Source: Candidatus Beckwithbacteria bacterium CG23_combo_of_CG06-09_8_20_14_all_47_9 (GTDB lineage: Bacteria; Patescibacteriota; Microgenomatia; UBA1400; CG1-02-47-37). Taken from it: a stretch of 20,165 bases of DNA. Below, in pieces: positions 1 to 17,794 of the stretch (its first letter is position 1; each line of letters opens with the position of its first letter). Made by a program: the position numbers and the translations under genes. The notes under the pieces were generated by a model. That model did no database searches, had not been told where the DNA came from, and worked only from the letters and a program-made list of their open reading frames with translations. The stretch is from the NCBI GenBank assembly GCA_002772455.1, contig PCSQ01000066.1, positions 1 to 20,165 on the forward strand. Direction: 5' to 3'.

Positions 1-824
1 ATTCCGGCGGCTTTCAGGTAATGAGCCTGGCTAAAAAGGGCTCGGGTAAAGTGACTGATGAAGGAGTGTCGTTCCACCTGAATAAAAAGAAAAAGATTTT
101 GCTGACACCGGAAAAGTCGATCGATTTTCAGTTAAAGTTGAAGACCGATTTACTGGTGGTGCTGGATGATTTTACCCCGCCGGATGCCAGCCGTAAGGAG
201 GCCGAGGCCACGGTTAAGCGGACGATCGGGTGGGCGGTAAGAAGTAAGGCTGAATTTGATAAACAGTGCGCCGGTAGAAAAGATAAGCCGTATTTAGTCG
301 GCGTGGTCCAGGGCGGATTTTTCCCGGACTTAAGAAAGGAGTGCAGTTTGCGGTTGGCGGAAATTGGCTTTGACGGTTTTGGTTACGGCGGCTGGCCGAT
401 GAGAAGCGACGGACAATTTGATTACGAATCGGCACAAATTATCGCGGACAACACGCCCAAAGACAGCTGGCTTTATGGTTTGGGGATCGGCAAACCGGAT
501 GAAATTACTAATCTCGCGAAAATGGGCTACCAAATTTTTGACTGCGTTTTGCCGACGCGCGACGCGCGCCATGGCCGGCTGTACGTTAGCGCGGCCAACG
601 AGAAAGGCTTTGCTTATTTCAATCCGGATAAAGAGCGGCATTATTACGATAATACGGCCGTGGATTCGAATTGCGACTGCTTGCTGTGCACCCATTACAG
701 CCGGGCCTATTTGCGACATTTATTTAAGATAAAGGATTTAACCGCGGTTCGTTTGGCGACGATCCACAATTTACGCTTTTACTCCCGGTTGATGGAAAGA
801 CTTCAGGGAGAGTCCCTCAAGTGA
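1..824 (+). CDS. tgt: tRNA-guanine transglycosylase (queuosine-type), 5' end outside window
   Basis: This family swaps guanine in tRNA for a 7-deazaguanine base. The reading frame is open from base 3, and the first residues read SGGFQVMSLAK, the conserved SGGFQ segment, so the true start lies upstream of the window and the Met at base 21 is internal. Other family marks are VVQGGFFPDLR, the nucleophile region FDCVLPTR followed by DARHG, and a zinc site C-x-C-x2-C-x25-H (NCDCLLC to TIHNL). Two pocket segments look unusual: LDDFTPP where bacterial enzymes usually have FDECTP, and GYGGWPM where GGLAVGE is usual, so the substrate may differ from preQ1. The C-terminus stops soon after HNLRFYSRLMER, and its last seven residues, LQGESLK, are encoded by a hairpin repeat. 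The usual final helix seems to be missing. Family assignment is firm; exact substrate is not. Confidence 0.9.
   Translation, partial: SGGFQVMSLAKKGSGKVTDEGVSFHLNKKKKILLTPEKSIDFQLKLKTDLLVVLDDFTPPDASRKEAEATVKRTIGWAVRSKAEFDKQCAGRKDKPYLVGVVQGGFFPDLRKECSLRLAEIGFDGFGYGGWPMRSDGQFDYESAQIIADNTPKDSWLYGLGIGKPDEITNLAKMGYQIFDCVLPTRDARHGRLYVSAANEKGFAYFNPDKERHYYDNTAVDSNCDCLLCTHYSRAYLRHLFKIKDLTAVRLATIHNLRFYSRLMERLQGESLK
801..821 (+). repeat. GAG-loop hairpin repeat, copy A (GGGA type, one arm mismatch)
   Basis: Left arm CTTCAGGGA, loop GAG, right arm TCCCTCAAG. One base of the right arm breaks the pairing (C where G is expected). It codes for LQGESLK, the last residues of Tgt, and the TGA stop follows at once. 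It lies 17 bp before the ATG of the first RAYT gene, so it could be the left boundary of that mobile unit. Confidence 0.85.
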
Positions 825-830
825 TATAGT
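825..830 (+). promoter_or_regulatory. Probable -10 box of first RAYT gene (near-leaderless)
   Basis: TATAGT is followed by 8 nt and then ATG. The second RAYT gene has the same TATAGTGAA sequence 7 nt before its ATG, which supports a shared promoter element. At the usual -35 distance lies hairpin copy A, which has only a weak -35 match. Transcription would start almost at the ATG. Confidence 0.5.
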
Positions 831-838
831 GAAACTAA

Positions 839-1492
839 ATGCCGGCCAAAAATGCTTTGAAGGAATATCACGAAAATGGTTATTACCACCTTTATAATCG
901 GGGTGTTAATAAAGGAGCAATCTTTTCTGACGAGCAGGACTATAAAACTTTTTTGTATTATTTAAAGTTGTATCTTTGTTCCGAAAAACTTCAAGTAGAG
1001 TACTTGAAGTTATATCCGTCGAGGAAATTGAAGAATTATTGTGACAGGCTCAAATTGCTGGCATATTGCTTAATGCCTAATCATTTTCATTTGTTAGTTT
1101 GGCAGAAAGACCAGGACGCGATTAATTACTTTATGCGTTCGCTGACGGTTAAATATGCCATGTATTTTAATAAGAAATACAAACGGATCGGACCGCTTTT
1201 TCAAGGCGTTTACAAAGCAGTTTTGGTGGAAAATGAACCGCAGTTGGTATACCTTTCAAAATATATTCACCGTAATCCAATCGAGCTCACTTCAAGTAGA
1301 GTACTTGAAGTTTACCCATACTCCAGTTATCAAAATTATTTGGGAAAGTTTAATCAGGATTGGGTCAAGCGTGACGAAATTCTGGATTATTTTTCTAAAA
1401 CCAGAATTGCCAACTCTTACCGCGCTTTTGTTGAGGAAACCGATGAACGGGATTTACCGATGGTTAAATCACTGGTCCTTGAGGATATCTAA
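839..1492 (+). CDS. REP-associated tyrosine transposase (RAYT, Y1/HUH family), copy 1
   Basis: This 217-residue single-strand transposase belongs to the IS200-like Y1 family that is linked to REP palindromes. It opens with YHLYNRGVNK, carries the HUH metal motif in MPNHFHLLV (H82, H84), the conserved RIGPLFQGVYK block, and the likely catalytic Tyr142 in KYIHRNP. Such enzymes nick and rejoin DNA at hairpin ends. Two hairpin repeats lie in frame within the gene: residues 51-57 (LQVEYLK) and residues 152-157 (SSRVLE, just after HRNP). More repeats lie just before the gene (ending at 821) and at its stop codon. No tnpB or accessory gene is next to it. The DNA looks more AT-rich than flanking genes, which would fit transfer. 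It is about 70% identical at protein level, by eye, to the second copy at 15212. All expected motifs are intact, so activity is possible. Confidence 0.92.
   Translation: MPAKNALKEYHENGYYHLYNRGVNKGAIFSDEQDYKTFLYYLKLYLCSEKLQVEYLKLYPSRKLKNYCDRLKLLAYCLMPNHFHLLVWQKDQDAINYFMRSLTVKYAMYFNKKYKRIGPLFQGVYKAVLVENEPQLVYLSKYIHRNPIELTSSRVLEVYPYSSYQNYLGKFNQDWVKRDEILDYFSKTRIANSYRAFVEETDERDLPMVKSLVLEDI
989..1009 (+). repeat. GAG-loop hairpin repeat, copy B (AGTA type), inside RAYT 1
   Basis: Arms CTTCAAGTA and TACTTGAAG pair perfectly around GAG, and AA/TT flanks extend the stem to 11 bp. It is read in frame as LQVEYLK, residues 51-57 of the transposase. The second RAYT has a hairpin at exactly the same residues but in the GGGA version. 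Confidence 0.95.
1290..1310 (+). repeat. GAG-loop hairpin repeat, copy C (AGTA type), inside RAYT 1
   Basis: Identical in its 21 bases to copy B, with A/T flanks giving a 10-bp stem. It is read in a different frame, giving SSRVLE right after the catalytic YIHRNP motif. The second RAYT has a segment of similar length here but no hairpin. Confidence 0.95.
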
Positions 1493-1516
1493 CTTCAGGT
1501 AGAGTACCTGAAGTTA
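1490..1516 (+). repeat. GAG-loop hairpin repeat, copy D (GGTA type), between convergent RAYT 1 and uvrC
   Basis: Core arms CTTCAGGTA and TACCTGAAG around GAG lie at 1493-1513. Outer TAA/TTA pairs extend the stem to 12 bp. The left TAA is the RAYT stop codon, and the right TTA, read on the other strand, is the uvrC stop codon. The arm sequence is intermediate between the AGTA and GGGA versions. No T-tract follows, so a role as an intrinsic terminator is only possible. Confidence 0.93.
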
Positions 1517-2692
1517 GATGAATAGAGTTTTGGAGCGCAGGCGCAGGTGCTGGCGGCGGCCGAAACGATGGGCTTCGTCGCGCAGTTGAATTAAGAGTCG
1601 GGCGGCGGCGGTGTTTAAATCCAGTGGTTTATTGACGCCGACCAAACGGTCAGGTTTTTTGGCCAAGCCCACCACCATAATATCCGCCGGAATAAGTTTT
1701 TTTACTGCCTTGATTTGGGTCCGGCCGCCGTCAACGATAATTAAGTCCGGCTTTGCCCATTCGCTATGTTTGAGGCGGCGGGAAATCATTTCAGCCATCA
1801 TCGCCGGATCATTGGGGGTGGCTAAACTCCTGATGTTAAATAGCCGATATTGGGCTTTATCCGGCCGGCCGTGGGTAGCAACCACCATGGCTCCGGTCGG
1901 ATTAGTGCCGGATAAATTACTGATGTCGTAAGTTTCAATCCGGTTAACCCTAAAGCCGAACAGCTGGTTTAACTCCAGTTGAATCTGGTCCTGGCTTAAG
2001 CGCGGCAGTTCCAAAGACATGACTCGTGCCTGCCAGAAGTAACTCAAGGCCTCCAGTTGCTTTTGGACGGCTTGAGCCGGTTCGTACTTTTGGGCTTTGG
2101 CGAAGTTAAGCATTTCTTTTTTCAAAGAGGCAACTAAACGTTTCTTCTTATTTTGGAAAAAGAGCTGGATATCGGTAATATTTTTAGCGTAAGTCTCTCG
2201 GGAAATAACGCCGATACAGGCGCCGGGGCAAAGCCCGAGATGATAGTAGAAACACGGCCGCGAACCAGCCGGCTGATCACAGTAAGGAAAAATATGGCGT
2301 AAACGTTCTAAAATTTGCCGCAATGTGCGGGTGGAGCTGAACGGGCCGAAAGTGCCGGTTTGCCGGGTGATTAAAATTCGGGGATAGACGGCTTTGGTGA
2401 TGGTTAAATAAACCGGCGTTTTGTCATCTTTTAAAATCAAGTTAAAATGCGGCTGATAAAGTTTAATCAAACGGGCTTCGGTTAAAATCGCTTCGATCTC
2501 CGAGTCCAATCCCTGCCAGCGGAGGTGGTCGGCGGCGGCCAGCAGCAGCTTGGTTTTGGGGTCAAAACCGGCTTGGCGGGGATAGCTTTTCAGGCGCCGG
2601 CTTAAATTCTTCGCCTTGCCGACGTAAATTACTTTCCGGCCTTGCAAAAACCAATAGACTCCCGGCCGGCCGGGAAAAGCTTGGTTAAACAT
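1514..2692 (-). CDS. uvrC: UvrC, excinuclease ABC nuclease subunit (compact form)
   Basis: UvrC makes the two incisions in nucleotide excision repair after UvrB marks the lesion. At 392 residues it is much shorter than the roughly 600 of typical UvrC. Visible domains are an N-terminal GIY-YIG nuclease (GVYWFLQ, VIYVGKAKNLSRRL, residues 11-34), the Cys-containing segment SRPCFYYHLGLCPGAC, a UVR helix pair at about 180-220, and the RNase H-like nuclease with D256 (YDISN), D321 (IIVDGG) and H375 (RDEAHRF). The linker before the RNase H domain is very short, and the protein ends right after this domain, so the helix-hairpin-helix tail is missing. I chose the ATG at 2692, which overlaps the end of uvrA by 8 bp. 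A longer frame reaching 2818 would overlap uvrA by more than 130 bp and only adds non-family sequence. The stop codon lies in hairpin copy D. Confidence 0.93.
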   Translation of the reverse strand: MFNQAFPGRPGVYWFLQGRKVIYVGKAKNLSRRLKSYPRQAGFDPKTKLLLAAADHLRWQGLDSEIEAILTEARLIKLYQPHFNLILKDDKTPVYLTITKAVYPRILITRQTGTFGPFSSTRTLRQILERLRHIFPYCDQPAGSRPCFYYHLGLCPGACIGVISRETYAKNITDIQLFFQNKKKRLVASLKKEMLNFAKAQKYEPAQAVQKQLEALSYFWQARVMSLELPRLSQDQIQLELNQLFGFRVNRIETYDISNLSGTNPTGAMVVATHGRPDKAQYRLFNIRSLATPNDPAMMAEMISRRLKHSEWAKPDLIIVDGGRTQIKAVKKLIPADIMVVGLAKKPDRLVGVNKPLDLNTAAARLLIQLRDEAHRFGRRQHLRLRSKTLFI

Positions 2693-5519
2693 AATTTTTA
2701 AGAAACTGCCCGGTATAAGAGGCCTTGAACCGGGCGACATCATGAGGCGTTCCCGAAGCGACGATTTGGCCGCCGGCCTCCCCGCCTTCCGGCCCGAGGT
2801 CGATAATCCAGTCGGCATTTTTAATCACTTCCAGATTGTGTTCGATTACCATCACCGTGTTGCCTAAAGCGACCAGCTGTTTTAAAACCCCGATCAGTTT
2901 TTTTAGATCTTCAAAGTGCAGTCCGGTCGTCGGTTCATCAAGCAGATAAAGCGTGTGGCCGCGGCCCTTAATCGACAGTTCCCGCGCCAATTTGACCCGC
3001 TGGGCCTCGCCGCCGGAAAGGGTTGGGGCCGGCTGTCCCAAGGTAAGGTAGTGGAGACCGACGTTTTTTAGGGTTTGCAATTTGGGAGTTAGCCCGGAAT
3101 AGGCGGGGAAAAAGCTTAAGGCTTCTTCCACCGTCATCTCCAGCACCTGAGCGATATTTTTGTCTCGGTATAAAATATCCAAAGTCGGCTGTTGATAACG
3201 CTTGCCGCCGCAGACTTCGCAGGTGATGAAAACATCCGGCATAAACTGCATTTCGATTTTCACCTGCCCTTCTCCCTGACAGGCTTCACAGCGGCCACCC
3301 TTGACGTTAAAGGAAAATTTGCCCGGATTGAAACCGGCGATTTTGGCGTCGCGGGTAGTGGAAAAAAGACCGCGGATAAAATCAAAAGCTTTGGTGTAAG
3401 TGGCCGGATTGCTTCGGGGGGTCCGCCCGATCGGGTTTTGATCGATTAACGCCGTCCGGGTAATCATTTCTCCGCCGGAGAGAGCCTTAAAGTTTTTTTT
3501 GCTATCCTTGAACCAAGGATTCAGGCGGGACTTAATTGCCGGGTAAAGCGTGTCGTGAATCAGGGAACTTTTGCCCGAACCGGAAACGCCGGTGATGACA
3601 AGGAAGCGGTTTAGGGGGAACCTGACGGTTAAGTCTTTCAGGTTATTTTGAGTGCAGCCGGTTATAATCAGAGCCGAGTTATTAGAGCTTAGAGCATAAT
3701 TTGAAGAGATGCTAATGCCGGAATTATTTTTGAGAAACTTTCCGGTGAGAGATTTAGGGTTGGCCATGACCTGTTTAGGAGTGCCGGCGGCGACGATCCG
3801 GCCGCCGTATTTGCCGGCTTTCGGTCCAAAATCGACCAAGTAATCGGCTTGAAGCATGATATCTTTATCGTGTTCTACGACGATGACCGTGTTGTCTAAA
3901 TCACGCAAGTGCTTCAAAGTCGTAATCAGCTTTTGGTTGTCCCGCTGATGCAGGCCGATGGACGGTTCATCTAAAACATAGAGGACTCCGGATAGCCCGG
4001 AGCCGATTTGCGAGGCCAAACGGATCCGCTGGGCCTCGCCGCCGGCCAGCGTTCCCGCCTGCCGGGATAAAGATAAGTAATCCAAACCGACGGCCAGTAA
4101 AAACTCCAGCCGGTGGCTGATCTCTTTTAAAATCAATCGGCCGATGGCTAATTCTTTTTGATTTAAAACTTGATCAGCTTTGATGAAGTCAAGACAGTCT
4201 TTAATTGACAGTTCGGTTAATTGAAAAATGTTCAGACCTTTGAAGCTGACTGAAAGAGCCTCGGTTTTGAGGCGGCTGCCATGGCAGGTCGGGCAAAGCT
4301 CTTCGCTCATGTATTTGCCGATTTCCTGACGGATATAGTCCGAGTCGGTCTCGCTGAAGCGGCGTTCCAAATGAGTGACAAAGCCTTCCCAAAAGCTCGA
4401 GCCGTAAAGCAGTTGGGTTTGAACCGCCGGGGGCAGATTTTTCCAAGGTTTGGCCGGGTCGACGCTTTCATCGGAAAACAAGGCTTCGATTTTCGGCCTG
4501 ATCCACGTGCCAACGGCCAATTGGGTTGCCAAGGGAATGATTGCCCCTTCAAAGACAGACAAATTCGGTGCCAGCAGTTTATTCAGATCAATTTTCAGCA
4601 AGACGCCGATGCCGGTGCATTGGGGACAGGCACCGTGCGGCGAGTTAAAAGAAAATAAGCGCGGGGTCAATTCGGGCAAAGACAGATTGCATTCCGGACA
4701 GGCGTATTTTTGGGAAAACAAATGATCGTTAAACCGGACGGGGTTTTCCGGAAAAGTCAAACTTGGGTCGAGTACTTGGGAGACGAGGCTCAAACCGCCG
4801 GTTAATTCATTGGCTTTGGTTAAACTGTTAAACAAGCGGGTCTTGACCGTGCTTAAATCTTTTTGAGTCACGGTCAGCCTTTCGATGACCACATCTAGAT
4901 TGTGGCGGTTGGTTTTAATCAGGACTAAATCATCGCTTAGGTTAAAAATCCGGCCATCGGCCCGGACTTTGGAATAGCCTTTTTTAAATAAGTTTTTAAA
5001 CAGCTCGGTAAACTCCCCTTTTTTGTCCCGAATCACCGGGGCGAACACTATGAATCGTGACGGCTTCCGGCCGGTTAAAGACCGGGCGATAATTTCTTCA
5101 GCTTGTATGACGATCTGATCAATTGTTTGCCGGCTGATTTCCCGGCCGCAGTGGGGACAGTGGGGTCGGCCGACGCGGGCATAAAGGAGGCGCAGGTAAT
5201 CGTAAATTTCGGTAATCGTGCCGACGGTCGAACGCGGATTCCGGGAAGTGGTTTTTTGGTCAATGGCGATGGCCGGCGACAGGCCTTCCAGAGTATCGAC
5301 GTCCGGTTTACTCATCAGCCCTAAAAATTGGCGGGCGTAACTGCTTAAAGATTCCACGTAGCGGCGTTGGCCTTCGGCATAGATAGTGTCGAAAGCCAAA
5401 GAACTTTTCCCGGAACCGGATAAACCGGTAAACACTACCAGTTTATTCTTGGGAATATCCAAATCAATATTTTTTAAATTGTGGGTTCGGGCACCGCGGA
5501 CTTTAATTAAATCGCTCAT
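2685..5519 (-). CDS. uvrA: UvrA, excinuclease ABC ATPase subunit
   Basis: UvrA is the damage-sensing ATPase that loads UvrB onto DNA. At 944 residues it has the usual length. Both ABC modules are present: Walker [10 protein letters not shown] near the N-terminus and GVSGSGKSS in the second half, signatures [12 protein letters not shown] and [12 protein letters not shown], and Walker B segments ending in LDEPS and LDEPT. Zinc modules are visible as CPHCG, the CPEC to CPQC pair, and the CEAC to CEVCGG pair. The ATG overlaps the end of uvrB by 17 bp, and the stop overlaps the start of uvrC, so the three genes form one operon in the order B-A-C. Nothing looks damaged. Confidence 0.97.
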
Positions 5520-7467
5520 AAACTTTCTTTAGTTTAGCCGCTTTGTCAAAATTTAATTCTTGGGCGGCCCGCAGCATTTGGCGTTTGATCCGGAGTTGGT
5601 ATTTGATCCGGTCGTCGTAGGTCAGGGAATTCGGATCGAGGGGATCGGTCTCTGCTTGGTCAGTTTTTTTGAGCAGGCGGCGGCGGATGGGCTTGACGAT
5701 GGATTTGGGGTTTAAGTGATGGGTTCGGTTATAAGACAATTGAATTTGGCGCCGGCGGGAGACTTCTTTGATGGCCCGGTCCATCGAACCGGTAAGTTTA
5801 TCGGCATACATAATTACCTGACCGTCGACGTGCCTTGCTGCCCGGCCCATGGTTTGAATCAGCGAAGTTTGCGAACGGAGAAAGCCTTCTTTATCGGCAT
5901 CCAAGATTGCTACTAAACTGACTTCGGGCAAGTCTAAGCCTTCGCGCAGAAGATTAATGCCGACTAAAACATCAAAATCGCCCAGCCGCAGTTTATCCAG
6001 AATATCCGACCGGTCCAAAGTTTTAACATCGCTATGAAGATACTCGACCTTCAGGTTCTCACCCTGAAGGTGCTCGGCCAGGGCTTCGCTGTTTTTCTTG
6101 GTTAAAGCGGTCACCAGCACCCGTTCTTTTCGGGACACCCGCAGTTTAATTTCTTTGATTAAATCCTGAATTTGTCCGGTTGACGGCCGCAGGGTGATTT
6201 TTGGGTCGCTGATTCCCGTGGGCCGGACCAATTGTTCCACTGGCCGGCCGCTTTGGGACAGCTCCCATTCGTCTGGTGTGGCCGAAACATAAATCGCCTG
6301 CGGGACTTTGCTTAAGAATTCTAAAAATTTCAACGGCCGGTTGTCAATCGCTGCCGGCAGACGGAAACCGTAGTCAATCAGGGTTTGTTTCCGGGATTGA
6401 TCGCCGCGGTACATGCCCCGGATTTGGGGCAGGCTCATATGAGATTCATCGATTACCGTTAAATAGTCTTTGGGAAAATATTCCAGCAGGGAAAAGGACG
6501 GTTCGCCGGGGAGACGGCCGTCAAAATAGCGGGAGTAATTTTCGATACCGTTGACAAAGCCTAAAGACTCGATCATCTCCAAATCGTAGTTGACTTTTTG
6601 TTCCAGCCGAAACGCTTCAACCAGCTTGTTTTTACTTTTAAATTCCTCAAGACGCCGGGCCAAGTCCCGGCGAATTTGTTTTAAGGCTTGCTTTTGGGTA
6701 ATCGGATTGGTCAGATAATGTTTAGCCGGGTAGATCACTTCCCGCTTGGGGGCGGGCCGGGTGTCGGCGATCGGTTCCAGGCTGACCGGATCAACCCGGC
6801 GGATCGATTCGATTTGATTATCGAGTAGGACCAATTTAAGGCAGTAATCGACGTAAGCCGGATAAATGAGCAGGGTTTCGCCTTTTAATTGCCAGACTCC
6901 CCGCTTCAATTCATAATCATTTCTTTGGTATTGTAAATCGGTTAAACGGGCTAGAACTGTCTGTTTATCGATCAATTGACCTTCAATTAACTCAAGTATG
7001 TACCGGCCGTACTCGACCGGCGAACCCAGATTATAAATGCAGGAGACTGAAGCGACGACAATGACGTCACTGCGGGTCAGCAGGTTGGCGGTAGCCGAGA
7101 GGCGAAGTTTGTCGATCTCGTCATTAATATTGGTTTCCTTTTCGATGTAGGTGTCGGTTTTGGGAATGTAGGCTTCCGGCTGATAATAGTCATAGTAGGA
7201 AACAAAGTAAGACACGGCATTTTCCGGGAAAAAATCGCGAAATTCCTGATAGAGCTGGGCCGCCAGAGTTTTGTTATGAGAAATGACTAAGGTGGGTTTT
7301 TGCACGGCGGCAATCACGTTGGCAATCGTATAAGTTTTCCCCGAACCGGTCACGCCCAATAGGGTTTGGTGTTTTTTACCGGAGTTTAAGCCTTTGACTA
7401 AAGCCTCAATCGCTTGAGGTTGATCCCCGGTCGGCTGAAAATCGGCCTTGAGTTTAAATTTGGGCAT
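5503..7467 (-). CDS. uvrB: UvrB, excinuclease ABC helicase subunit
   Basis: UvrB verifies lesions by strand separation and recruits UvrC. The 654-residue protein has Walker A GVTGSGKT at residues 38-45, the beta-hairpin region [21 protein letters not shown] (given to mark the site; key residues are the tyrosines), the DESH box in VIDESHM, helicase motifs such as [15 protein letters not shown], and a C-terminal UVR motif. It is the first gene of the uvrBAC operon. A promoter overlaps the start of the divergent thiamine pyrophosphokinase gene. A short stretch, [16 protein letters not shown], matches the family in length but its DNA forms a degenerate hairpin of the local repeat family. Confidence 0.97.
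6049..6069 (-). repeat. Degenerate GAG-loop hairpin repeat, copy E, inside uvrB
   Basis: On the minus strand the arms are CTTCAGGGT and AACCTGAAG around GAG, with 8 of 9 pairs formed. It differs from the GGGA version at 3 of 21 bases, and one pair is swapped (T-A for A-T), which keeps the stem. It encodes LQGENLK in UvrB. The protein is not longer than the family here, so chance is possible. It is the only copy in this orientation. Confidence 0.5.
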
Positions 7468-7476
7468 AAACCTTTT

Positions 7477-7505
7477 ATTATAAGGCTATAATGGCTTATG
7501 GTCAA
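7477..7505 (-). promoter_or_regulatory. Promoter of uvrBAC operon
   Basis: On the minus strand TTGACC (7505-7500) is followed by a 17-bp spacer and TATAAT (7482-7477). The uvrB ATG comes 9 nt after the -10 box, so the transcript has a leader of only a few bases. The -35 box overlaps the start codon of the divergent gene. An imperfect inverted repeat CCTT-N7-AAGG lies at 7471-7485. Confidence 0.7.
7487..7492 (+). promoter_or_regulatory. -10 box of thiamine pyrophosphokinase gene (leaderless)
   Basis: TATAAT is followed by 5 nt and the ATG at 7498, the spacing expected of a leaderless transcript. No clear -35 box is seen at the right distance. The box lies in the spacer of the opposing uvrB promoter, so the two polymerases would compete. 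Confidence 0.5.
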
Positions 7506-8094
7506 AAGGGCGGTGTTATTTACTAATGGTGACTTGTCCGACGCCAGCCGGCTAAAATTAAAAAAAACCGATTATTTAATCGGGGTAGACGGCGGGACCA
7601 ATTTGATCCGGCGGTTGGGCTTGAAGCCGGATTTAGCGATTGGCGATTTCGACTCTTATCCAAAGCCAAAAACCAAAGCTGTCTTTAAACAATCTCAAGA
7701 TTTGACGGACACTGAATTTGCACTGGATTACTGCGTTAAACAGGGATTTAAAGAAATTGTTCTGGTGGGGGTTTTGGGCCGGCGGTTGGACCACTTACTG
7801 GCTAATATTTTTCTGGCAGTTAAATTTAAATTGACAATTTATGAGGGTCAGCAAGTTCTCTATTTTATTACAGGTCCTTCAAGTAGAGTACTTGAAGGAA
7901 GACGAGGCGACTTAATTTCTTTATTGCCATTGACTAATTGTCTTGGGATAACGTCTAAAGGATTGAAATGGACACTTCAAGTAGAGTACTTGAAGTTCAG
8001 CTGTACGCGAGGAATTTCTAACGTGATGACCGGGAAAACCTGCCGGGTCAGCCTCAAGAAAGGCCGGCTTTTGGTAGTGTATAATAAGATATAG
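7498..8094 (+). CDS. thiN: Thiamine pyrophosphokinase carrying two hairpin-encoded segments
   Basis: The enzyme transfers pyrophosphate from ATP to thiamine, giving TPP, the cofactor of the KorAB enzyme encoded further right. The 198-residue protein has the family motifs VDGGTN (30-35), IGDFDS (48-53), QDLTDTEFAL (67-76), GRRLDH (94-99) and a C-terminal half with GLKW and GISN. Two hairpin repeats are read in frame: SSRVLE at residues 128-133, in the turn before RRGDLISLLP, and LQVEYLK at 160-166, between GLKW and RGISN. They use two different frames of the same 21-base sequence. Both sit in loop or edge positions, and the flanking motifs are intact, so the enzyme is probably active. The stop codon directly abuts tRNA-Arg. 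The DNA appears more AT-rich than neighbours. Confidence 0.92.
   Translation: MVKRAVLFTNGDLSDASRLKLKKTDYLIGVDGGTNLIRRLGLKPDLAIGDFDSYPKPKTKAVFKQSQDLTDTEFALDYCVKQGFKEIVLVGVLGRRLDHLLANIFLAVKFKLTIYEGQQVLYFITGPSSRVLEGRRGDLISLLPLTNCLGITSKGLKWTLQVEYLKFSCTRGISNVMTGKTCRVSLKKGRLLVVYNKI
7877..7897 (+). repeat. GAG-loop hairpin repeat, copy F (AGTA type), inside thiamine pyrophosphokinase
   Basis: Arms CTTCAAGTA and TACTTGAAG pair perfectly around GAG. TC/GA flanks extend the stem to 11 bp. It is read as SSRVLE, the same frame as copy C of the first RAYT. Confidence 0.95.
7975..7995 (+). repeat. GAG-loop hairpin repeat, copy G (AGTA type), inside thiamine pyrophosphokinase
   Basis: Identical in its 21 bases to copies B, C and F. 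It is read as LQVEYLK, the same frame as copy B. It lies only 77 bp after copy F. Confidence 0.95.
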
Positions 8095-8166
8095 GCTTCC
8101 GTAGCTCAACGGATAGAGCATTCGTCTTCGGAACGAAGAATGCAGGTTCAATCCCTGCCGGGAGCA
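8095..8166 (+). tRNA. tRNA-Arg (anticodon TCG)
   Basis: Acceptor arms GCTTCCG and CGGGAGC pair with one G-T wobble. The D arm is GCTC/GAGC. The anticodon stem TTCGT/ACGAA encloses CTTCGGA, giving anticodon TCG (codon CGA). The T arm is GCAGG-TTCAATC-CCTGC. The discriminator is A, and CCA is not encoded (CTC follows). The gene starts at the base after the TAG stop of the kinase gene, so the two must be co-transcribed and processed apart. Confidence 0.93.
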
Positions 8167-8182
8167 CTCGTCCAAATATTAT

Positions 8183-8258
8183 GGGCCGGTAGCTCAATTG
8201 GCAGAGCAAATCCCTCTTAAGGATTTGGTTCTGGGTTCAAGTCCCAGCCGGCTCACCA
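8183..8258 (+). tRNA. tRNA-Lys (anticodon CTT), CCA encoded
   Basis: Acceptor arms GGGCCGG and CCGGCTC pair with one G-T wobble. The D arm is GCTC/GAGC. The anticodon stem AATCC/GGATT encloses CTCTTAA, giving anticodon CTT (codon AAG). The T arm is CTGGG-TTCAAGT-CCCAG. Discriminator A and an encoded CCA end the gene, unlike its neighbour tRNA-Arg 16 bp upstream. It is convergent with the solute-binding protein gene. Confidence 0.95.
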
Positions 8259-11995: not shown

Positions 11996-12002
11996 AGACT
12001 TT

Positions 12003-12031
12003 ATTCTAAACTGGGGCTTGACAGCAGTCAA
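12003..12031 (-). promoter_or_regulatory. Promoter of transglutaminase-secG operon
   Basis: On the minus strand TTGACT (12031-12026) is followed by a 17-bp spacer and TAGAAT (12008-12003). The ATG at 11995 comes 7 nt later, giving a leaderless transcript. Its -35 box lies 2 bp from the -35 box of lexA on the other strand. Confidence 0.6.
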
Positions 12032-12047
12032 AATTTCCGCCTAAGAT
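12018..12047 (+). promoter_or_regulatory. lexA promoter with overlapping dyad
   Basis: TTGACA (12018-12023), an 18-bp spacer and TAAGAT (12042-12047) lie before the lexA ATG at 12070. The dyad TTGAC-N4-GTCAA at 12018-12031 covers the -35 boxes of both divergent promoters and could be a LexA operator. The dyad may also arise simply because two -35 boxes face each other. Confidence 0.6.
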
Positions 12048-12069
12048 AAAACGAAGATTAACCTAACAT

Positions 12070-12696
12070 ATGCCGATTACTTTATACCGACGCCAGAGAC
12101 AAATTGTCGATTTTGTCGCCCAATATATTTCCGCCTGCGGTTTGGCGCCGACGCTCCGGGAGATCGGCGACGCCTTGGGTGTTTCCTCGCTGGCCACGGT
12201 CCACGAACATTTGCAGGCATTGATTAAAAAAGGCGTCTTGAGAAAACTCACCGGCACGGTCCGGGGCTTGGAAATAGTCAACGAAAAGTATCATCCGGAA
12301 CAAAGCGGCCTGATTTTGCCGATCTTAGGATACATTGCCGCCGGCGTGCCGATCGAACCCTACACTGATCCGAATGCCAGTTTCAGCGTTTCTTCGGCCA
12401 TGGTCTCGGTCAAAAAACGGTCTTACGTTTTACAAGTAAAAGGCGATTCAATGATCGACGAAGGCATTTTGGACGGTGACTACGTGGTGATCGAAGAGAC
12501 CGACGCGGCCGAAAACGGCGAGATCGTGGTGGCTCTGCTGGAAAACGGCTTGGCGACCCTGAAGCGATTTTTCCGGGAAGCGACCCGGGTCCGGCTGGAG
12601 CCAGCCAATTCCAAAATGAGCCCGATTTATGCCACCAACGTCCGGATTCAAGGCAAGTGCGTTGGGGTTATCCGCAAATTCAAACCGGTAAATTAA
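12070..12696 (+). CDS. lexA: LexA, SOS repressor
   Basis: LexA represses DNA-damage genes and cleaves itself when RecA is activated. The 208-residue protein has the usual length. The N-terminal winged helix is RQRQIVDFVAQYI then PTLREIGDALGVSSLATVHEHL. The cleavage site is Ala91-Gly92 (IAAGVP), and the Ser-Lys dyad is Ser127 (KGDSM) and Lys165 (ATLKRF). All catalytic parts are present. It is divergent from the transglutaminase operon and convergent with korB, 3 bp apart. Regulation of itself through the dyad at its promoter is likely but not shown. The uvrBAC operon is the obvious target in this window, but its promoter lacks the same dyad. Confidence 0.95.
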   Translation: MPITLYRRQRQIVDFVAQYISACGLAPTLREIGDALGVSSLATVHEHLQALIKKGVLRKLTGTVRGLEIVNEKYHPEQSGLILPILGYIAAGVPIEPYTDPNASFSVSSAMVSVKKRSYVLQVKGDSMIDEGILDGDYVVIEETDAAENGEIVVALLENGLATLKRFFREATRVRLEPANSKMSPIYATNVRIQGKCVGVIRKFKPVN

Positions 12697-12699
12697 ATT

Positions 12700-13545
12700 C
12701 TATTTAAACTCGTCTAAAACCGAAGTTAAATCAATTTTATCAATGGCTGAATCAGCTAAGATTCCGGTTTTCAGCAGGGTGAAATTTTCGTGCCAGGGGG
12801 TCCGGGGAACCCGGTAAAAAATGCCGATCGGCAGGCGGTCGGTCCTCAAGCTTAACTTTAAGGCGGCTTCGAGATCAGCGGGATCGTGGGCGATTTTATC
12901 CAGGTATTCAATGTGCTCGCGGTACCAGGCATATGGCCGGGATTTGTTGTAGGTCGGGCAGGGCTGGAGAATGTCGATCAGGCTGAAGCCCCGATGTTTG
13001 ACTCCGGCAACTAAAAGTTTCGTCAAGTGCGGAATGTCCCCGGCAAAGCCCCGGGCGACGAACGCAGCGCTGTTAGTTAAAGCCGTGGCTAAAGGGTTAA
13101 ACGGTTCGTCGATGACGCCGGCCGGGGTTGAGGGGGTAACTTGGCCTTTGGGGGTAGTCGGCGATTTTTGGCCGGTAGTTAAAGAATAGAGGAAGTTATC
13201 ATGGACCAGAACGGTGACATCATGATTGCCGCGGGCCAGGGAAAGCAAGTGGCTGACGCCTTCGCCGTAACCGCCGCCGTCGCCGATGATGACAAAGACT
13301 TTTAAGTTATGGTTGGCCAGTTTGATTCCGGCCGCCGGCGGCAGTCCCCGGCCGTGCAGGGCGTGGAAACCGTAGGCAAAAACAAAATCGGCCATGTTGC
13401 CGGAACAGCCGACGTCGTAGACAAAGGCGGCTTGATGGGGTTCCAGTCCCAATTGGTCCAGAGCCGCTTTAATCGCCCCCAAAATGGCAAAATTACCGCA
13501 ACCGGGACACCAGGTAGGCGAAAGTTTGGTAACGCGGGCGGTCAT
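12700..13545 (-). CDS. korB: 2-oxoacid:ferredoxin oxidoreductase, beta subunit
   Basis: The beta subunit holds TPP and an iron-sulfur cluster and converts a 2-oxoacid plus CoA to acyl-CoA, CO2 and reduced ferredoxin. The 281-residue protein has Cys13 and Cys16 (WCPGCGN), Cys47 (DVGCSG) and Cys196 (QPCPTYN) as likely cluster ligands. The TPP/magnesium motif runs from GDG (88-90) to Asn117 (HDNFLYSLTTGQ). HGRGLPPAAGIKLAN is typical of the family. The start overlaps korA by 4 bp (ATGA). The substrate may be pyruvate, 2-oxoglutarate or a branched 2-oxoacid; sequence alone does not settle it. Confidence 0.92.
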   Translation of the reverse strand: MTARVTKLSPTWCPGCGNFAILGAIKAALDQLGLEPHQAAFVYDVGCSGNMADFVFAYGFHALHGRGLPPAAGIKLANHNLKVFVIIGDGGGYGEGVSHLLSLARGNHDVTVLVHDNFLYSLTTGQKSPTTPKGQVTPSTPAGVIDEPFNPLATALTNSAAFVARGFAGDIPHLTKLLVAGVKHRGFSLIDILQPCPTYNKSRPYAWYREHIEYLDKIAHDPADLEAALKLSLRTDRLPIGIFYRVPRTPWHENFTLLKTGILADSAIDKIDLTSVLDEFK

Positions 13546-15170
13546 ATTTTTTTCAAGCCTTCAATAATTTCTTCCGGATAAAATTGGCGTCCGTCGTATT
13601 TTAAGATTTTATCTTTAATCATCGTGCCGGTTTGCTGGGCGATTAATTTACTCAATTGACCGGTGGCATTGCCTTCAACCGTGATCAACCGGGGCTGATG
13701 AGCGATTAAAGCTTTAAACTGCGCCAGCGGGAACGGCCACAGCCAGGCAAAGTGGATCAGATTGGTGTTAGGAAGACTGGGGAGAGCGTCCAAAATCGCC
13801 CCTTTGTTTGAACCCCAGGAAACGAGGGTAGTTTTGGCTTTGGCCGGGCCGAATATCCGCGGGGCGATCAAGTCATCGCTTGCCAGAATGGTCGTTAGTT
13901 TTTTCAGCCGCTTATCCATTTGTTTAACCCGCTCGCGACTGTCTTCGGTGGCATAGCCCAGCTCGTCATGTTCGTAAGAATTAGCCAGAAAAATGCCGCC
14001 GGGCCGGCCGGGCAAAGGCCGGGGAGAAATGCCCGAAGCCGTCACTTGGTAGCGTTTGAACGGTTCGGGCGACGCGCCGGTTTTTGCCAGGCAGTAGCGC
14101 TGATTTGTGTGACCGGCAGGCGGCTGATCGGCCGTATAATAACCTTCGCCCAGATTTTTATCGGCCAGGATAATGACCGGCAATTGATATTTTTCGGCCA
14201 GGTTTTGAGCGGCTTTAGCCAAAGTAAAGGCTTCGGTTGGATCCCCCGGGGCCAACACGATCCGGGGAAATTCGTCCTGGGCGGCATTAATGGCAAAAAG
14301 CAAATCTCCCTGACCGCTCCAGGTAGGCATGCCCGAGGCCGGGCCGGGGCGCATGCCTAAAATTATCACTAACGGGGTTTCGGTAATGCCGGCCAAACCT
14401 AAAGCCTCGACCATCAGGGAAAAACCGCCGCCGGAAGTGGCCACCATCGAGCGGACGCCGCCAAAGCCGGCGCCGATGGCCATATTGGCGACCCCGATTT
14501 CGTCTTCGGCATGATTGACGATGATGTTTAGTTTTTTAGCGTTGGCGGCCAAGTAATGAAGAATCGGAGTCACCGGGGTCATCGGGTAGGCACAGTAAAA
14601 TTTCATGCCGCCGGCGACCGCGCCCAAAGCCAGTGCCTCGTTGCCGCAAATCATAATTTGATTTTTAAGCGCCCGGCCGGGCGCGATTAGCTTAAGTTTT
14701 TTATCAGCAAAATTCTTGGCGGCATAGTCAAAGCCTAATTGGGCGGCCTGATGGTTTTGAACCGTAATGCTTTGATCTTTGCCGGCAAAGGCTTCGGCAA
14801 TCACCTGTTTGAAAATGGCCAGGTCTAAACCGATTAAAGCGCAACTGGCCCCAAGAGCGACGGTGTTTTTTGTCAGGAAATTGCCGCTTTGATTGGCCAG
14901 TTCGGCCAGGGGCAGTTTTAAAGGTTGGTCTAAAATGATTTGTGACGTTTTTAGGTCAACTAAAATATCGATTTTTACTTGGCCGCTGTTAACCGGTTGA
15001 TCGCCGGCAACCACCGAAAAAGTATTATGTCCGCCCCGGATTAAGCTGGGATATTCGGTCGAGCCGTAAGTGTACCAACCGGCCCGTAAAGCGGTTTTTT
15101 GCATCATTAAACCAGAGACTTTTATGCCCTCTCCGGCCGCTCCGGCAATCTGCCAGTTGAATTTTGCCAT
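13542..15170 (-). CDS. korA: 2-oxoacid:ferredoxin oxidoreductase, fused gamma-alpha subunit
   Basis: This 542-residue subunit joins the gamma domain (about 1-170: AGAAGEGIKVSGLM, YPSLIRGGHNTFSV) to the alpha domain (YPMTPVTPILHYL, EDEIGVANMAIGAG, ATSGGGFSLMVEALGLAG, ETPLVIILG) and a C-terminal transketolase-like domain. Such fusions are normal for two-subunit KorAB-type enzymes, which lack a built-in ferredoxin subunit. It is the first gene of the pair with korB. The promoter region is shared with the divergent second RAYT gene; a TATAAA box and a TATGCT box are candidates for its own -10. No sign of damage. Confidence 0.93.
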   Translation of the reverse strand: MAKFNWQIAGAAGEGIKVSGLMMQKTALRAGWYTYGSTEYPSLIRGGHNTFSVVAGDQPVNSGQVKIDILVDLKTSQIILDQPLKLPLAELANQSGNFLTKNTVALGASCALIGLDLAIFKQVIAEAFAGKDQSITVQNHQAAQLGFDYAAKNFADKKLKLIAPGRALKNQIMICGNEALALGAVAGGMKFYCAYPMTPVTPILHYLAANAKKLNIIVNHAEDEIGVANMAIGAGFGGVRSMVATSGGGFSLMVEALGLAGITETPLVIILGMRPGPASGMPTWSGQGDLLFAINAAQDEFPRIVLAPGDPTEAFTLAKAAQNLAEKYQLPVIILADKNLGEGYYTADQPPAGHTNQRYCLAKTGASPEPFKRYQVTASGISPRPLPGRPGGIFLANSYEHDELGYATEDSRERVKQMDKRLKKLTTILASDDLIAPRIFGPAKAKTTLVSWGSNKGAILDALPSLPNTNLIHFAWLWPFPLAQFKALIAHQPRLITVEGNATGQLSKLIAQQTGTMIKDKILKYDGRQFYPEEIIEGLKKI

Positions 15171-15198
15171 AGTAAAAGCATAGCATAATTTATAGGTG

Positions 15199-15204
15199 TA
15201 TAGT
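15199..15204 (+). promoter_or_regulatory. Probable -10 box of second RAYT gene (leaderless)
   Basis: TATAGT then GAAGATA, then the ATG at 15212. The same TATAGTGAA precedes the first RAYT gene. The box overlaps a GTG at 15203 that would otherwise allow an earlier start, which argues for the ATG. Confidence 0.5.
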
Positions 15205-15211
15205 GAAGATA

Positions 15212-15871
15212 ATGCCGGCTAAAAACGCCCTTAAAGAATATCACGAAAATGGCTACTATCACTTGTATAATCGCGGTGTTAATAAAGGGCTAATATACTC
15301 TGACGAGCAAGACTATAAAAATTTCTTATGGCTGCTGAAGATATATCTTTCTGCAGTTGACCTTCAGGGAGAGTCCCTGAAGGCTCCACCCTCACATAAA
15401 CTTAAGAATTATTTTGAACAAATCCGGCTAATTGCTTACTGCTTGATGCCCAATCACTTTCACTTAATGATCTGGCAAAAAGATCCTGACGGCATTAACC
15501 ACTTTATGCGCTCTTTAGCAACTAAATATACGATGTATTTTAACCGTAAATATAAACGGATAGGTCCCCTCTTTCAAGGAGTTTATAAGGCTGTTTTAGT
15601 CGAAAGTGAGCCCCAATTACTTTACTTATCGAAATATATTCACCGTAATCCTTTTCCGGTTTTGTCTGCCGGAAGCCTACTCTCAAACTATAAACACTCT
15701 AGCTACCAAAACTACTTAGGATTATTTAATCAGCCATGGATTGATAAGGACGATATTCTTGGTTTATTCTCAAAGAATCCTCAAGGTAGTAATTCTTATC
15801 AAAATTTTGTCGAGGAAACTGACGAAAGAGACCTAGCTTTTATTAAAACACTTGTTCTTGAGGAAGTATAG
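15212..15871 (+). CDS. REP-associated tyrosine transposase (RAYT, Y1/HUH family), copy 2
   Basis: This 219-residue protein is the close relative of the first RAYT and shares MPAKNALKEYHENGYYHLYN at its start, which is why I prefer the ATG at 15212 to the GTG at 15203. The HUH motif is H82/H84 (MPNHFHLMI), and the likely catalytic Tyr142 is in KYIHRNP. RIGPLFQGVYK and FVEETDERDL are conserved. Residues 51-57 (LQGESLK) are encoded by a GGGA-type hairpin, at the same place as the AGTA-type hairpin of copy 1. The segment after HRNP has no hairpin, unlike copy 1. Another hairpin begins 1 bp after the stop. Third-base differences from copy 1 are common, so the duplication or the two arrivals are not recent. 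The gene separates korA from the acyl-CoA synthetase. Confidence 0.92.
   Translation: MPAKNALKEYHENGYYHLYNRGVNKGLIYSDEQDYKNFLWLLKIYLSAVDLQGESLKAPPSHKLKNYFEQIRLIAYCLMPNHFHLMIWQKDPDGINHFMRSLATKYTMYFNRKYKRIGPLFQGVYKAVLVESEPQLLYLSKYIHRNPFPVLSAGSLLSNYKHSSYQNYLGLFNQPWIDKDDILGLFSKNPQGSNSYQNFVEETDERDLAFIKTLVLEEV
15362..15382 (+). repeat. GAG-loop hairpin repeat, copy H (GGGA type), inside RAYT 2
   Basis: Arms CTTCAGGGA and TCCCTGAAG pair perfectly around GAG, with a C-G flank giving a 10-bp stem. It is read as LQGESLK, residues 51-57. Compared with copy B, two base pairs of the stem are changed on both sides (A-T to G-C and T-A to G-C). Confidence 0.95.
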
Positions 15872-15872
15872 T

Positions 15873-15893
15873 CTTCAGGGAGAGTCCCTGAAG
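15873..15893 (+). repeat. GAG-loop hairpin repeat, copy I (GGGA type), between convergent RAYT 2 and acyl-CoA synthetase
   Basis: Identical in its 21 bases to copy H. It starts 1 bp after the RAYT stop. Read on the minus strand it supplies the last residues FRDSP and the TGA stop of the acyl-CoA synthetase. Confidence 0.95.
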
Positions 15894-17794
15894 GTGGTGA
15901 TTTTGAGGTCGACGATGGTGACACTGGTTTCGGTTAAAATGGCCGGGTTGATTTCCAACTCTTGAACCGATTGGAATTCTTCGATCAGCTGACAGGCGTT
16001 GAGAATTAATTTGACTATTGCTTTGACGGCCAGTTTAACTCCGTTTCGATAACCGAAAATAATCTGGCCGATCCGGGTTTGCCGGAGTAAATTGGCAATC
16101 AGTTTTTCGTTGACCGGCAAAAATACCCGGGCAAGGTCCCGGTACAGCTCGGTATAAACTCCTCCGCCGCCAAGGGTCAGCAGCACCGGCCAGCCGGGTT
16201 CGCGCTTCAGGCCGATAAACAGTTCGTGGCCGGCAGTTAACTGCGGCTGGGCCAGAATCAGCGGAAATTTTTGCGCCAGCCGGCGGTAGGCGGTTTTAAC
16301 GGCGGCGCCGGTTTTTAAATTAAGATAAATAGCTTTGGCTTCGGTGCGGTGGGCGCCGGCACTGGGGTCGGCTTTGAGCACCACCGGCCAGGAAAAATCG
16401 GCCGGTTTGACCGGCTGATCCAAGGTAATTGTTTTAACCAAAGGCAGTTGATAGCGGCGGATTAAACTTTGCGCCTGTTTCCAGGTTAAACGGCCTTCAG
16501 GGAGAGTCCCTGAAGGTGAATGAATTGGGTAAGACCGCCGGGCAGGATAAAGGTCCAGTTTATGCCCCCGGTGCCATTGCAGCAGGGCGGCCAGGCCGGT
16601 GACCGCCTCTTGGGGTAGTTCGATCGTGGCGATTCGATTTTGGCGTAAAATATTGCCGGCGGTTTCGGTTAACCGGCCGGTCAGCAGGGAGACAATCAAG
16701 GGTTTTTTGACCGATCGGAAACGCCGGACAATTGCCCGGCAGGTAGACTCAATTTGGGTATTAGCCTGAGGGGTAATAATAATCAGATAGGCATCCCGGG
16801 TTTTATCTTTCAGAACCTCGTTTAAAGCCTGGCTAAACCGCCCGGCGCCGGCATCCCCCAGGACGTCAACGGCTTTGGCCACGTCCAAATTCAGACTGCT
16901 GGCCGTATCGGTGGCCAAAATGGCCGGACCGCCGGCGTTAGTGACAATTGCCAGATCGTTATCTTTTAATTCGGGTTCGAGCGAGAAAACTTCCAGCAGG
17001 TTGGTAAAGTCGGTAATGGTTTTTGCCTGCAGACAGCCGGACTGGTTTAAAGCGGCGGTCACGACGGCGCCGGCCGGACTTAAACTGGCGGTGTGGCTTT
17101 GACTGGCCAGCCGGCCGGCCGGAGTTTGGCCGCCGAAAAGAACGATAATCGGTTTTTTCCGGGAAATCCGGCTGGCCAGCTTCAGCCACCCCAGGCCGTC
17201 GGCAAACGATTCCAGGTAAAGAGCAATAATTTTAGTGGCCGAATCATTACCCAAATATTCCAGGAAATCATTTTCAGTCAAACCCAAACGATTGCCTAAA
17301 GAGATAAATTTAGAAAAACCTAAATGTTCCTGCCTGGCCCAGTTGAATAAATAGCTGGCCAGGGCCCCGGATTGAGAGATCAGGCCGATGTTCCCCGGCG
17401 GCGGATCGACTTTAGCAAAAGTGGTGTCCAGCCGGCGGGAAGGATTGGCTACCCCAAAACAGTTGGGGCCCAGAAACGGCACCGGCGGCGGCGGCAAGCT
17501 TACCCCGGCCTCTCCCAGTTCGGCAAAGCCGGAAGAAATCACAATCACCGCCTTAACTTTTTTAGCCACACAGTCGGTGAGGACACCAGGGACAAACCGG
17601 GCCGGAATTGCCACTACGGCCAGATCAATCCGGACTTTAATGTCCGTCACCCGTTGATAGCCAAAACGAGGATTAACCGGATACAGCCGTCCCGGATAGG
17701 CTTTAAGTTTTTGCCATAAGTTATAGCCGACTTTAGTTTTATCTTTAGAAGCGCCGATCAAGGCGATTGACCTTGGTTTAAAAAAATTATCCAT
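15875..17794 (-). CDS. Acetyl-CoA/acyl-CoA synthetase (ADP-forming), fused alpha-beta
   Basis: The enzyme turns acyl-CoA, ADP and phosphate into acid, CoA and ATP, a substrate-level ATP step fitting KorAB. The 639-residue protein has the CoA-binding domain (RSIALIGASKDKTKVG at the start, FLGPNCFGVANP), the ligase-type domains with SQSGALASY and the phosphorylated His234 (SQSHTAS), and a C-terminal ATP-grasp part (VVLKADPSAGAHRTE, LTLGGGGVYTELYRD, LEINPAI). A hairpin repeat encodes residues 427-433 (PSGTLPE) in the linker before the ATP-grasp part, and a second encodes the last residues FRDSP and the stop. It lies 2 bp after gpmI in an operon with eno and gpmI. Acid specificity is unknown; acetate is the simplest guess. 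The usual HKSD motif of the ATP-grasp part reads HRTE. Confidence 0.9.
   Translation of the reverse strand: MDNFFKPRSIALIGASKDKTKVGYNLWQKLKAYPGRLYPVNPRFGYQRVTDIKVRIDLAVVAIPARFVPGVLTDCVAKKVKAVIVISSGFAELGEAGVSLPPPPVPFLGPNCFGVANPSRRLDTTFAKVDPPPGNIGLISQSGALASYLFNWARQEHLGFSKFISLGNRLGLTENDFLEYLGNDSATKIIALYLESFADGLGWLKLASRISRKKPIIVLFGGQTPAGRLASQSHTASLSPAGAVVTAALNQSGCLQAKTITDFTNLLEVFSLEPELKDNDLAIVTNAGGPAILATDTASSLNLDVAKAVDVLGDAGAGRFSQALNEVLKDKTRDAYLIIITPQANTQIESTCRAIVRRFRSVKKPLIVSLLTGRLTETAGNILRQNRIATIELPQEAVTGLAALLQWHRGHKLDLYPARRSYPIHSPSGTLPEGRLTWKQAQSLIRRYQLPLVKTITLDQPVKPADFSWPVVLKADPSAGAHRTEAKAIYLNLKTGAAVKTAYRRLAQKFPLILAQPQLTAGHELFIGLKREPGWPVLLTLGGGGVYTELYRDLARVFLPVNEKLIANLLRQTRIGQIIFGYRNGVKLAVKAIVKLILNACQLIEEFQSVQELEINPAILTETSVTIVDLKITTFRDSP
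16495..16515 (+). repeat. GAG-loop hairpin repeat, copy J (GGGA type), inside acyl-CoA synthetase
   Basis: Identical in its 21 bases to copies H and I, with a C-G flank. The gene is on the other strand, where it reads PSGTLPE in a linker between domains. Its GAG loop points the same way as all intact copies of the window. Confidence 0.95.

Follow-up and report, generated by a model that had tools for sequence, protein, structure and literature searches.

A family of 21-bp hairpins is scattered through a 20,165-nucleotide stretch of the genome of Candidatus Beckwithbacteria bacterium CG23_combo_of_CG06-09_8_20_14_all_47_9 (contig PCSQ01000066.1; the whole stretch is called the window in the following), and most of the copies lie within protein genes. 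The question raised by this locus is to which system such hairpins belong, and how they came to occupy coding sequence. The original prediction, made from the letters of the window, knew of no named family with this sequence and saw the closest behaviour in Rickettsia palindromic elements. No name for the hairpin sequence was found in the present analysis either; the comparison with Rickettsia is not the best one, and the two transposase genes of the window had not been recognised. The hairpins are the cognate repetitive extragenic palindromes (REPs) of the REP-associated tyrosine transposases (RAYTs) encoded in the window. We consider it likely that they represent a REP/RAYT system of Patescibacteria, in which the hairpins are copied by RAYTs, match them version by version and often replace native codons.

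Transposases and hairpins of the window

RAYT1 (839..1492, plus strand, 217 aa) carries the HuH motif NHFH and the tyrosine motif YIHRNP, and matches the Y1_Tnp family PF01797 with E=2.5e-10; RAYT2 (15212..15871, plus strand, 219 aa) is 71% identical to RAYT1 and matches the same family with E=9.9e-9. Both matches exceed the family cut-off, and the Y---NP signature of class 2 is present, as YIHRNP, in both proteins. The sole NCBIfam match was NF047646 (REP_Tyr_transpos), for which three RAYTs scored 40.8, 34.5 and 44.1 bits at a cut-off of 80; judged by sequence, RAYTs of the window type are divergent relatives, outside the curated NF047646 subset. An AlphaFold2 model of RAYT1 (mean predicted local distance difference test score, pLDDT, 79.4) was compared with solved structures by using Foldseek: the top match, with E 2.7e-6, is the structure of a RAYT in complex with a REP hairpin (4er8), followed by the ISDra2 and IS608 transposases. 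A sequence search of RAYT1 against solved structures returned nothing up to E 0.1, 4er8 being reached by the fold search only. Residues Y142, H144, R145 and N146 are invariant across 45 aligned sequences.

Hairpins in the window were counted at up to 3 mismatches, additional rows being opposite-strand readings. Eight copies are exact, starting at positions 989, 1290, 1493, 7877, 7975, 15362, 15873 and 16495, while the one at 801 shows one mismatch and the one at 6049, on the minus strand, two. Dinucleotide shuffles of the window contain a mean of 0.01 matches by chance; the nine clear copies and the tenth one that had been predicted are therefore present far above expectation, and the proposed subdivision of the clear copies is also correct (AGTA four times, GGGA four times, with the mismatch in 801, and GGTA once). 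In the whole genome (G000; 885 kb in 149 contigs) 18 copies were counted at up to one mismatch and 23 at up to two, and the reversed hairpin pattern is found 0 times. The predicted plan of 9-bp arms around a 3-base loop holds, although the stem frequently extends to at least 10 bp: among 124 hairpins, the two bases next to the 21-mer pair with each other in 101, where 55.6 would be expected. The GAG loop, described as invariant, is so among the versions of the window; other versions carry other loops.

When nine of the ten copies (all but 7975) were folded as single-stranded DNA (ssDNA), hairpins of -4.8 to -10.7 kcal/mol were obtained. Eight of these nine beat all 200 shuffles, the mismatched 801 copy being exceeded or equalled by 25 of 200. 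A search of the window against Rfam at gathering thresholds returned two tRNAs only, and the hairpins match no structured-RNA family.

As predicted, eight of the nine clear copies lie inside a gene or end one; the exception is the 1493 copy, placed between the stop codons of RAYT1 and of a convergent open reading frame (ORF), taken by eye for uvrC. Around RAYT1, a GGGA hairpin with one mismatch (801..821, plus strand) precedes the gene and also forms the final codons of tgt (LQGESLK, then stop). Two AGTA hairpins lie within RAYT1, both on the plus strand: one at 989..1009 (LQVEYLK, frame 0), at a place called site A below, and one at 1290..1310 (TSSRVLEV, frame 1), at site B, shortly past YIHRNP. 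A GGTA hairpin with 15-bp perfect arms (1487..1519, plus strand; 21-mer 1493-1513) is found directly 3' of the RAYT1 stop. RAYT2 has hairpins only at site A (GGGA, 15362..15382, plus strand; LQGESLK, frame 0) and past its stop codon (GGGA, 15873..15893, plus strand), where the copy begins one base further on and holds the stop codon of a convergent acyl-CoA synthetase-like gene.

The other copies occupy host genes. Two AGTA hairpins, at 7877..7897 (plus strand; frame 1, PSSRVLEG) and 7975..7995 (plus strand; frame 0, LQVEYLKF), lie in the thiamine pyrophosphokinase (TPK) gene (7498..8094, plus strand; PF04263 and PF04265), and a GGGA hairpin at 16495..16515 (plus strand; frame 1 on the minus strand, PSGTLPEG) in the acyl-CoA synthetase (NDP-forming)-like gene (15875..17794, minus strand; PF13607, PF13549 and others). 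The tgt gene, encoding queuine tRNA-ribosyltransferase, is present with its 3' part (21..824, plus strand; PF01702), the 801 hairpin being its last codons before the stop. The 6049..6069 hairpin (minus strand; LQGENLK) lies in uvrB (5503..7467, minus strand; assigned by comparison with solved UvrB). It had been called degenerate, and is probably a separate version, GGGTGAGAACC, with one built-in mispair: the identical 21-mer is found three times in the genome, itself included, and on the same grounds its reading as a chance native sequence was dropped.

RAYT loci and their own hairpin versions at fixed places

RAYT loci appear to hold hairpins at up to four places. Two of these are at the ends of the coding sequence, 5' of its start and at its stop codon, and two lie within it: site A, around residue 50, and site B, following the catalytic Y motif. 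In order to avoid circularity, flanking hairpins were defined from the outer flanks only, and the interior of the gene was then searched without a palindrome filter. A matching palindromic flanking pair was found in 41 of 64 RAYT genes, and in 0 of 64 in each of 10 runs with shuffled flanks. The own flanking hairpin recurs inside the gene, at up to 4 mismatches, in 31 of these 41 RAYTs (17 of them perfectly); the best matches of the hairpins of other loci show about 7-9 mismatches on average. In a second set, from named genomes, a flanking pair was found for 48 of 80 RAYTs, half of which (24) also have a match within the gene at up to 4 mismatches. RAYT1 has a flanking pair, RAYT2 the downstream copy only.

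The two sets, merged and made distinct, contain 82 RAYTs with a flanking pair. The median distance is 19.5 nt from the end of the upstream copy to the start codon, and 4 nt from the stop codon to the beginning of the downstream one. Interior copies are present in 49 of the 82 and amount to 68, divided between site A (32 copies; residues 47-61, before the HuH motif) and site B (36 copies; 5-16 residues past the Y); none of the 68 lies elsewhere in the searched interior, which comprised all but the first 30 and last 25 bases. Frames 0, 1 and 2 are used by 27, 1 and 4 copies at site A, and by 6, 23 and 7 at site B. Both sites are probably permissive loops, since the RAYT1 model has two internal segments of low confidence, 53-59 and 148-153, which overlap the residues encoded there (51-57 and 151-158).

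The correspondence between the two sites is also visible at the protein level. Out of 8000 scored candidate proteins, 7815 are relatives at E <= 0.001. Among the best 120 homologs, both peptides are recognisable in 84, and the A peptide predicts the B peptide about 100 residues away: LQVEYLK occurs with -RV-, LQGPTLK with -LD- and LQGLSLK with -II-. Between the core residue pairs of A and B, mutual information amounts to 2.90 bits, compared with 1.22 +- 0.08 after shuffling (84 proteins; relatedness uncorrected). When pairs were back-translated, which failed for 25 of the 84, 80% of the remaining 59 fell within one base of a common hairpin, compared with 29% of shuffled pairs, again uncorrected for relatedness.

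The stems were also inspected for shared neighbouring signals. A GT[AG]G foot occurs at 5 of 328 stem feet, compared with 10.2 in displaced windows, and in 0 of 82 loci do the two flanking copies share it on one side. No universal tag was found beside the stem; TAGC, considered as such, is enriched (28 vs 3), which we attribute to the lengthened stems of a single clade together with stop codons. RAYT hairpins of Levybacteria and of some related genomes (L306, L307, L309, L310 and L327) have stems extended beyond the 21-mer by TAGC/GCTA. A -10-like box, TATA[ACT]T, follows the upstream hairpin in 13 of 82 loci and the downstream copy in 0 of 82, which is suggestive for some RAYTs only. Among the matches listed for G000 and its relatives, copies are, by inspection, mostly single, with a few close doublets; in a REPIN the mobile unit would be an inverted pair of REPs.

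Seven RAYT genes are present in G000, each with a 21-bp hairpin of its own, alike in the 9-3-9 plan and different in sequence. RAYT homologs were found in 28 of 53 genomes (the set includes that of the window), and in 15 of the 17 genomes that hold at least three hairpins of the CT.C family. Loci with pairs or interior copies from the named genomes include Levy-, Woese- and Collierbacteria, and one contig titled Omnitrophota (L356). The latter, outside Patescibacteria, encodes a RAYT whose site A holds its cognate hairpin without a mismatch.

Copies in host genes

The relation between dispersed copies and resident RAYTs was evaluated for the CT.C.RGG family only, in G000, G001, G003 and G040, G002 having too few hairpins. 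This test replaces an earlier one, biased by hairpins collected through similarity to G000 and G001 versions. The 92 non-RAYT hairpins of the four genomes are on average 1.73 mismatches away from the nearest hairpin of their own RAYT loci; when genome labels were permuted, the mean distance was 3.13 +- 0.17, and a value as low as that observed was obtained in 0 of 10000 permutations. Of the 40 hairpins examined in G040, 37 differ by at most two mismatches from one of the three RAYT versions of this genome; the full number is 52, of which 10 belong to RAYT loci and 2 were missing from the listing. Loci were picked through pattern hits and by choice, and counts over loci are not genome censuses.

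Single versions of G000 were also followed. GGGTGAGAACC has three exact copies and a near one (L060:5680, L062:7197, L063:83 and window 6049), and differs by at least 3 mismatches from every RAYT-locus hairpin of the genome. Hairpins of the form CTACGAGGA...TCCTCGTAG (L058:13777, L239:4159) have no near resident RAYT version, and are one mismatch away from that of a RAYT of the genus mate G001 (L123); their RAYT may have been lost from G000, or may lie in an unassembled part.

Of 49 non-RAYT copies sampled in G000, 39 are wholly contained in an ORF of at least 100 aa, with frames 0, 1 and 2 used 15, 21 and 3 times; such a bias is expected from selection, because frame 2 of the versions of the window holds a stop codon. 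In G040, 20 of 40 copies are found in ORFs of this size, in frames 0, 1 and 2 for 9, 6 and 5 of them.

A choice of 21 of the 49 sampled hairpins was compared with the orthologous sites of G001-G003, for a total of 43 comparisons. In 12 of these, at 11 of the 21 sites, the relative holds a family hairpin at the same codons, usually of another version: this is the case for CobO (G002, G003), for both TPK sites (G003), and for GatA, MiaA and CysS (G003), among others. TruB has a same-site hairpin in G001 and G003. The nearest relative has no family hairpin in CobO, where the two farther ones carry two other versions. Between G000 and G001, the hairpin of a glycosyltransferase-like gene (an assignment by eye) keeps an identical stem, with a GAG loop in the former and a CTC loop in the latter. 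This inversion, and the use of all three frames at sites A and B, support the suggestion that the hairpin is preserved rather than a peptide. Stem changes were counted in 18 comparisons, three same-site pairs omitted at first having been added, which made the result less favourable to strict pairing: 126 stem pairs are unchanged, 17 changed on both sides and still paired, and 2 wobble.

A clean 21-bp insertion would add seven residues to the host protein. In 31 comparisons, at 17 sites, with orthologs without a family hairpin, no difference of +7 was observed; the median is 0, six comparisons give exactly 0, five give +3 or more (only one above +5) and 11 give -3 or less. No gap is found at the hairpin in alignments with solved structures of CobO, UvrB, TPK (both sites) and TruB (second site). 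The hairpin peptides of the weakly aligned acyl-CoA synthetase and of GatA at 7197 also align without a gap, with two residues fewer just upstream in the former and one more upstream in the latter. Differences from structures were +2 for the first TruB site, -1 and +1 for two Obg sites, -4 for GatA at 7133, and about -7 and -8 for CysS and MiaA, both in variable loops; such loops blur the length count. By these comparisons there is no sign of clean insertion, and occupation is length-neutral in conserved stretches.

Among the neighbours, uvrC-like and uvrA-like ORFs, recognised by eye, cluster with uvrB beside RAYT1 (window 1514-7467), uvrB containing a hairpin. REPs in uvr genes have been noted for other bacteria too (PMC3733652). 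Two tRNA genes follow directly 3' of the TPK gene and its two hairpins (window 8095-8255), and a LexA repressor-like ORF, also assigned by eye, lies at 12070-12696 of the same window.

Origin of the copies and relation to known systems

In the reading preferred here, each RAYT, as a Y1 HuH single-strand DNA transposase, would recognise its own hairpin version folded in ssDNA, for example on the lagging strand, and would nick and rejoin DNA at this hairpin. An action of this kind is suggested by published work on TnpA_REP, which cleaves and transfers strands on folded single-stranded REP (PMC8266576). Copies would thereby spread into intergenic DNA and genes; those surviving in genes would be found at tolerant positions, rarely in a frame with a stop codon, and would often replace native codons. 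Version matching, which cognate recognition would explain, lends indirect support to a mobilisation of the hairpins by RAYTs. A resident RAYT version may also renew or overwrite existing hairpins; this would make all copies of a locus alike, two in the flanks and as many as two in frame, and replacement or renewal at existing hairpins could account for both copy likeness and length neutrality. Copies inside the RAYT gene could act in autoregulation, or could simply be those targets that have been tolerated for longest. A bolder proposal, offered tentatively and held to be clearly less probable than the general reading, is that RAYTs edit genes, swapping about 21 nt of host coding DNA for their own hairpin, length for length, so that the same codons could be re-written by another RAYT version; the RAYT gene and its up to two in-frame marks would then form a co-evolving, self-marking unit.

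Several observations weigh against a RAYT-driven, version-matched and replacing system. At the RAYT loci, 33 of the 82 genes with a flanking pair have no interior copy, and no pair was found by the criterion used in 23 of 64 and 32 of 80 RAYTs. The best foreign hairpin inside the gene is only 2-3 mismatches away for some members of the set of 64, and 0 in one row of the set of 80; some versions are alike, which is why foreign hairpins sometimes match nearly as well. RAYT1 itself is a mosaic, with GGGA upstream, AGTA inside and GGTA downstream, and the shuffle statistics ignore relatedness. As for the dispersed copies, those of G001 are equally near the RAYT versions of G000 (3.3) and their own (3.4), several G000 versions have no resident RAYT, and G007 and G044, with 9 and 3 family hairpins, have no RAYT match. 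In the 18 stem comparisons, 16 pairs changed on one side and are broken, and one changed on both sides and is unpaired, part of the broken pairs being explained by the built-in mispair of the G003 version. The predicted restriction to paired changes thus holds among the clear versions of the window, but not across species, where one-sided changes are about as common (16 vs 17). Length neutrality is imperfect as well: just 15 of the 31 hairpin-free comparisons are within 2 residues, over a range of -27 to +9. This, and the frequency of one-sided changes, lowered our confidence in the preferred reading.

The same length data bear on ordinary REP insertion, in which a RAYT would insert 21-23 bp, selection would keep copies in tolerant loops and later indels would trim the protein. 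Intragenic REPs of other bacteria are described as insertions (PMC3733652, PMC6006769), 16 of the 31 comparisons differ by at least 3 residues, an Obg copy (L066:2086) is 5 aa longer than its counterpart in the same genus, and an excess of 9-15 residues is seen in some orthologs that hold other hairpins; this last observation also counts against replacement. The absence of any +7 among the 31 comparisons, their median of 0 and the gapless alignments with CobO, UvrB, the second TruB site and both TPK sites do not fit, and we regard insertion as possible, though rather doubtful. A quite different hairpin, ATCACACACCCGGTGTGTGAT, which flanks distant RAYTs (L163, L165), is found in a glycosyltransferase-like gene of G002 (L290, ortholog of L239), there 15 residues longer, an example of such longer orthologs; this family seems to insert.

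Vertically inherited regulatory stems of RNA or DNA, kept in place by compensatory mutation or template-switch correction without any mobility, would agree with the occupation of the same gene sites in different genera and with the 17 paired changes in 18 comparisons, quasi-palindrome correction copying a change from one arm to the other. They would leave unexplained the identical 21-mers at many unrelated loci, the matching with resident RAYTs and the version shared by the places of a RAYT locus, and they accord poorly with CobO, empty in the nearest relative and occupied by two other versions in farther ones; this explanation appears unlikely. A hairpin family unrelated to RAYTs, such as Rickettsia palindromic elements, has in its favour the similar placement in open frames of genes (PMC3733652); since hairpin versions are tied to RAYT loci, it is very improbable. 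Least credible of all is that codons for a favoured LQGESLK-like peptide happen to be palindromic, or that the hairpins arose by chance. The encoded peptide can resemble native residues, the solved S. aureus-type TPK 3l8m reading lqnetlk where the window protein reads lqveylk, but chance yields 0.01 copies in shuffles, none of the three frames is avoided, an orthologous site shows an inverted loop, and half of the non-RAYT copies of G040 (20 of 40) are not in an ORF of at least 100 aa.

Known REP systems share several of these features. As in REPtrons (PMC2817692, PMC6006769), a Y1 HuH transposase with a Y---NP motif is flanked by its own hairpin, and several RAYTs per genome have each their own REP, with copies elsewhere in the genome; unlike canonical GTAG-type REPs, the present hairpins lack a GT[AG]G foot, follow a 9-3-9 plan and, in G000, lie mostly in ORFs of at least 100 aa (39 of 49 sampled non-RAYT copies). 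Subclass 2.4 of tnpA_REP (PMC6006769) also has REPs inside the transposase frame, in a variable region and with the frame kept open; there they generally lie between HuH and Y, whereas here all 68 of 68 lie before HuH or past Y. In the co-evolved TnpA_REP/REP pairs of three proteobacterial systems (PMC8266576), the transposase recognises its own perfect palindrome in folded form, together with bases of the loop, as proposed here; those REPs carry a GTAG motif, in which the present hairpins differ. Intragenic GTAG/CGTC REPs, including Rickettsia RPE-4 and RPE-6 (PMC3733652), likewise place palindromes in many unrelated genes, often for repair or RNA functions, and also hit the genes of uvrB and tRNA pseudouridine synthase B; they are treated as insertions, over half of them being dimers or groups encoding 20-30 aa, whereas the hairpins described here, among the matches listed, are mostly single 21-mers without a gain of seven residues.

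The insertion of a Rickettsia palindromic element adds the residues of the element to the host protein; no such gain is seen here, with 0 of 31 hairpin-free comparisons at +7 aa.

REPs flanking RAYTs, one REP family per tnpAREP, and in-frame and intragenic REPs have thus been published already (PMC6006769, PMC2817692, PMC3733652). In the main texts of the open-licence literature, among the matches listed, no such system in Patescibacteria and no hairpins at sites A and B were found. Apparently new are the two fixed internal sites, the version matching, the lack of a GT[AG]G foot and the replacement-like occupation.

REP elements are abundant, and the manner of their spread is unsettled. In the system described here many transposase/hairpin pairs are available, their specificity can be read from sequence alone, and in-frame copies leave a trace at the protein level. 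It thereby becomes testable which transposase residues read which stem or loop, and whether REPs spread by insertion or replacement. If the preferred reading is true, the hairpins would represent an unusual route by which mobile DNA rewrites small parts of core proteins in Patescibacteria, whose genomes are reduced.

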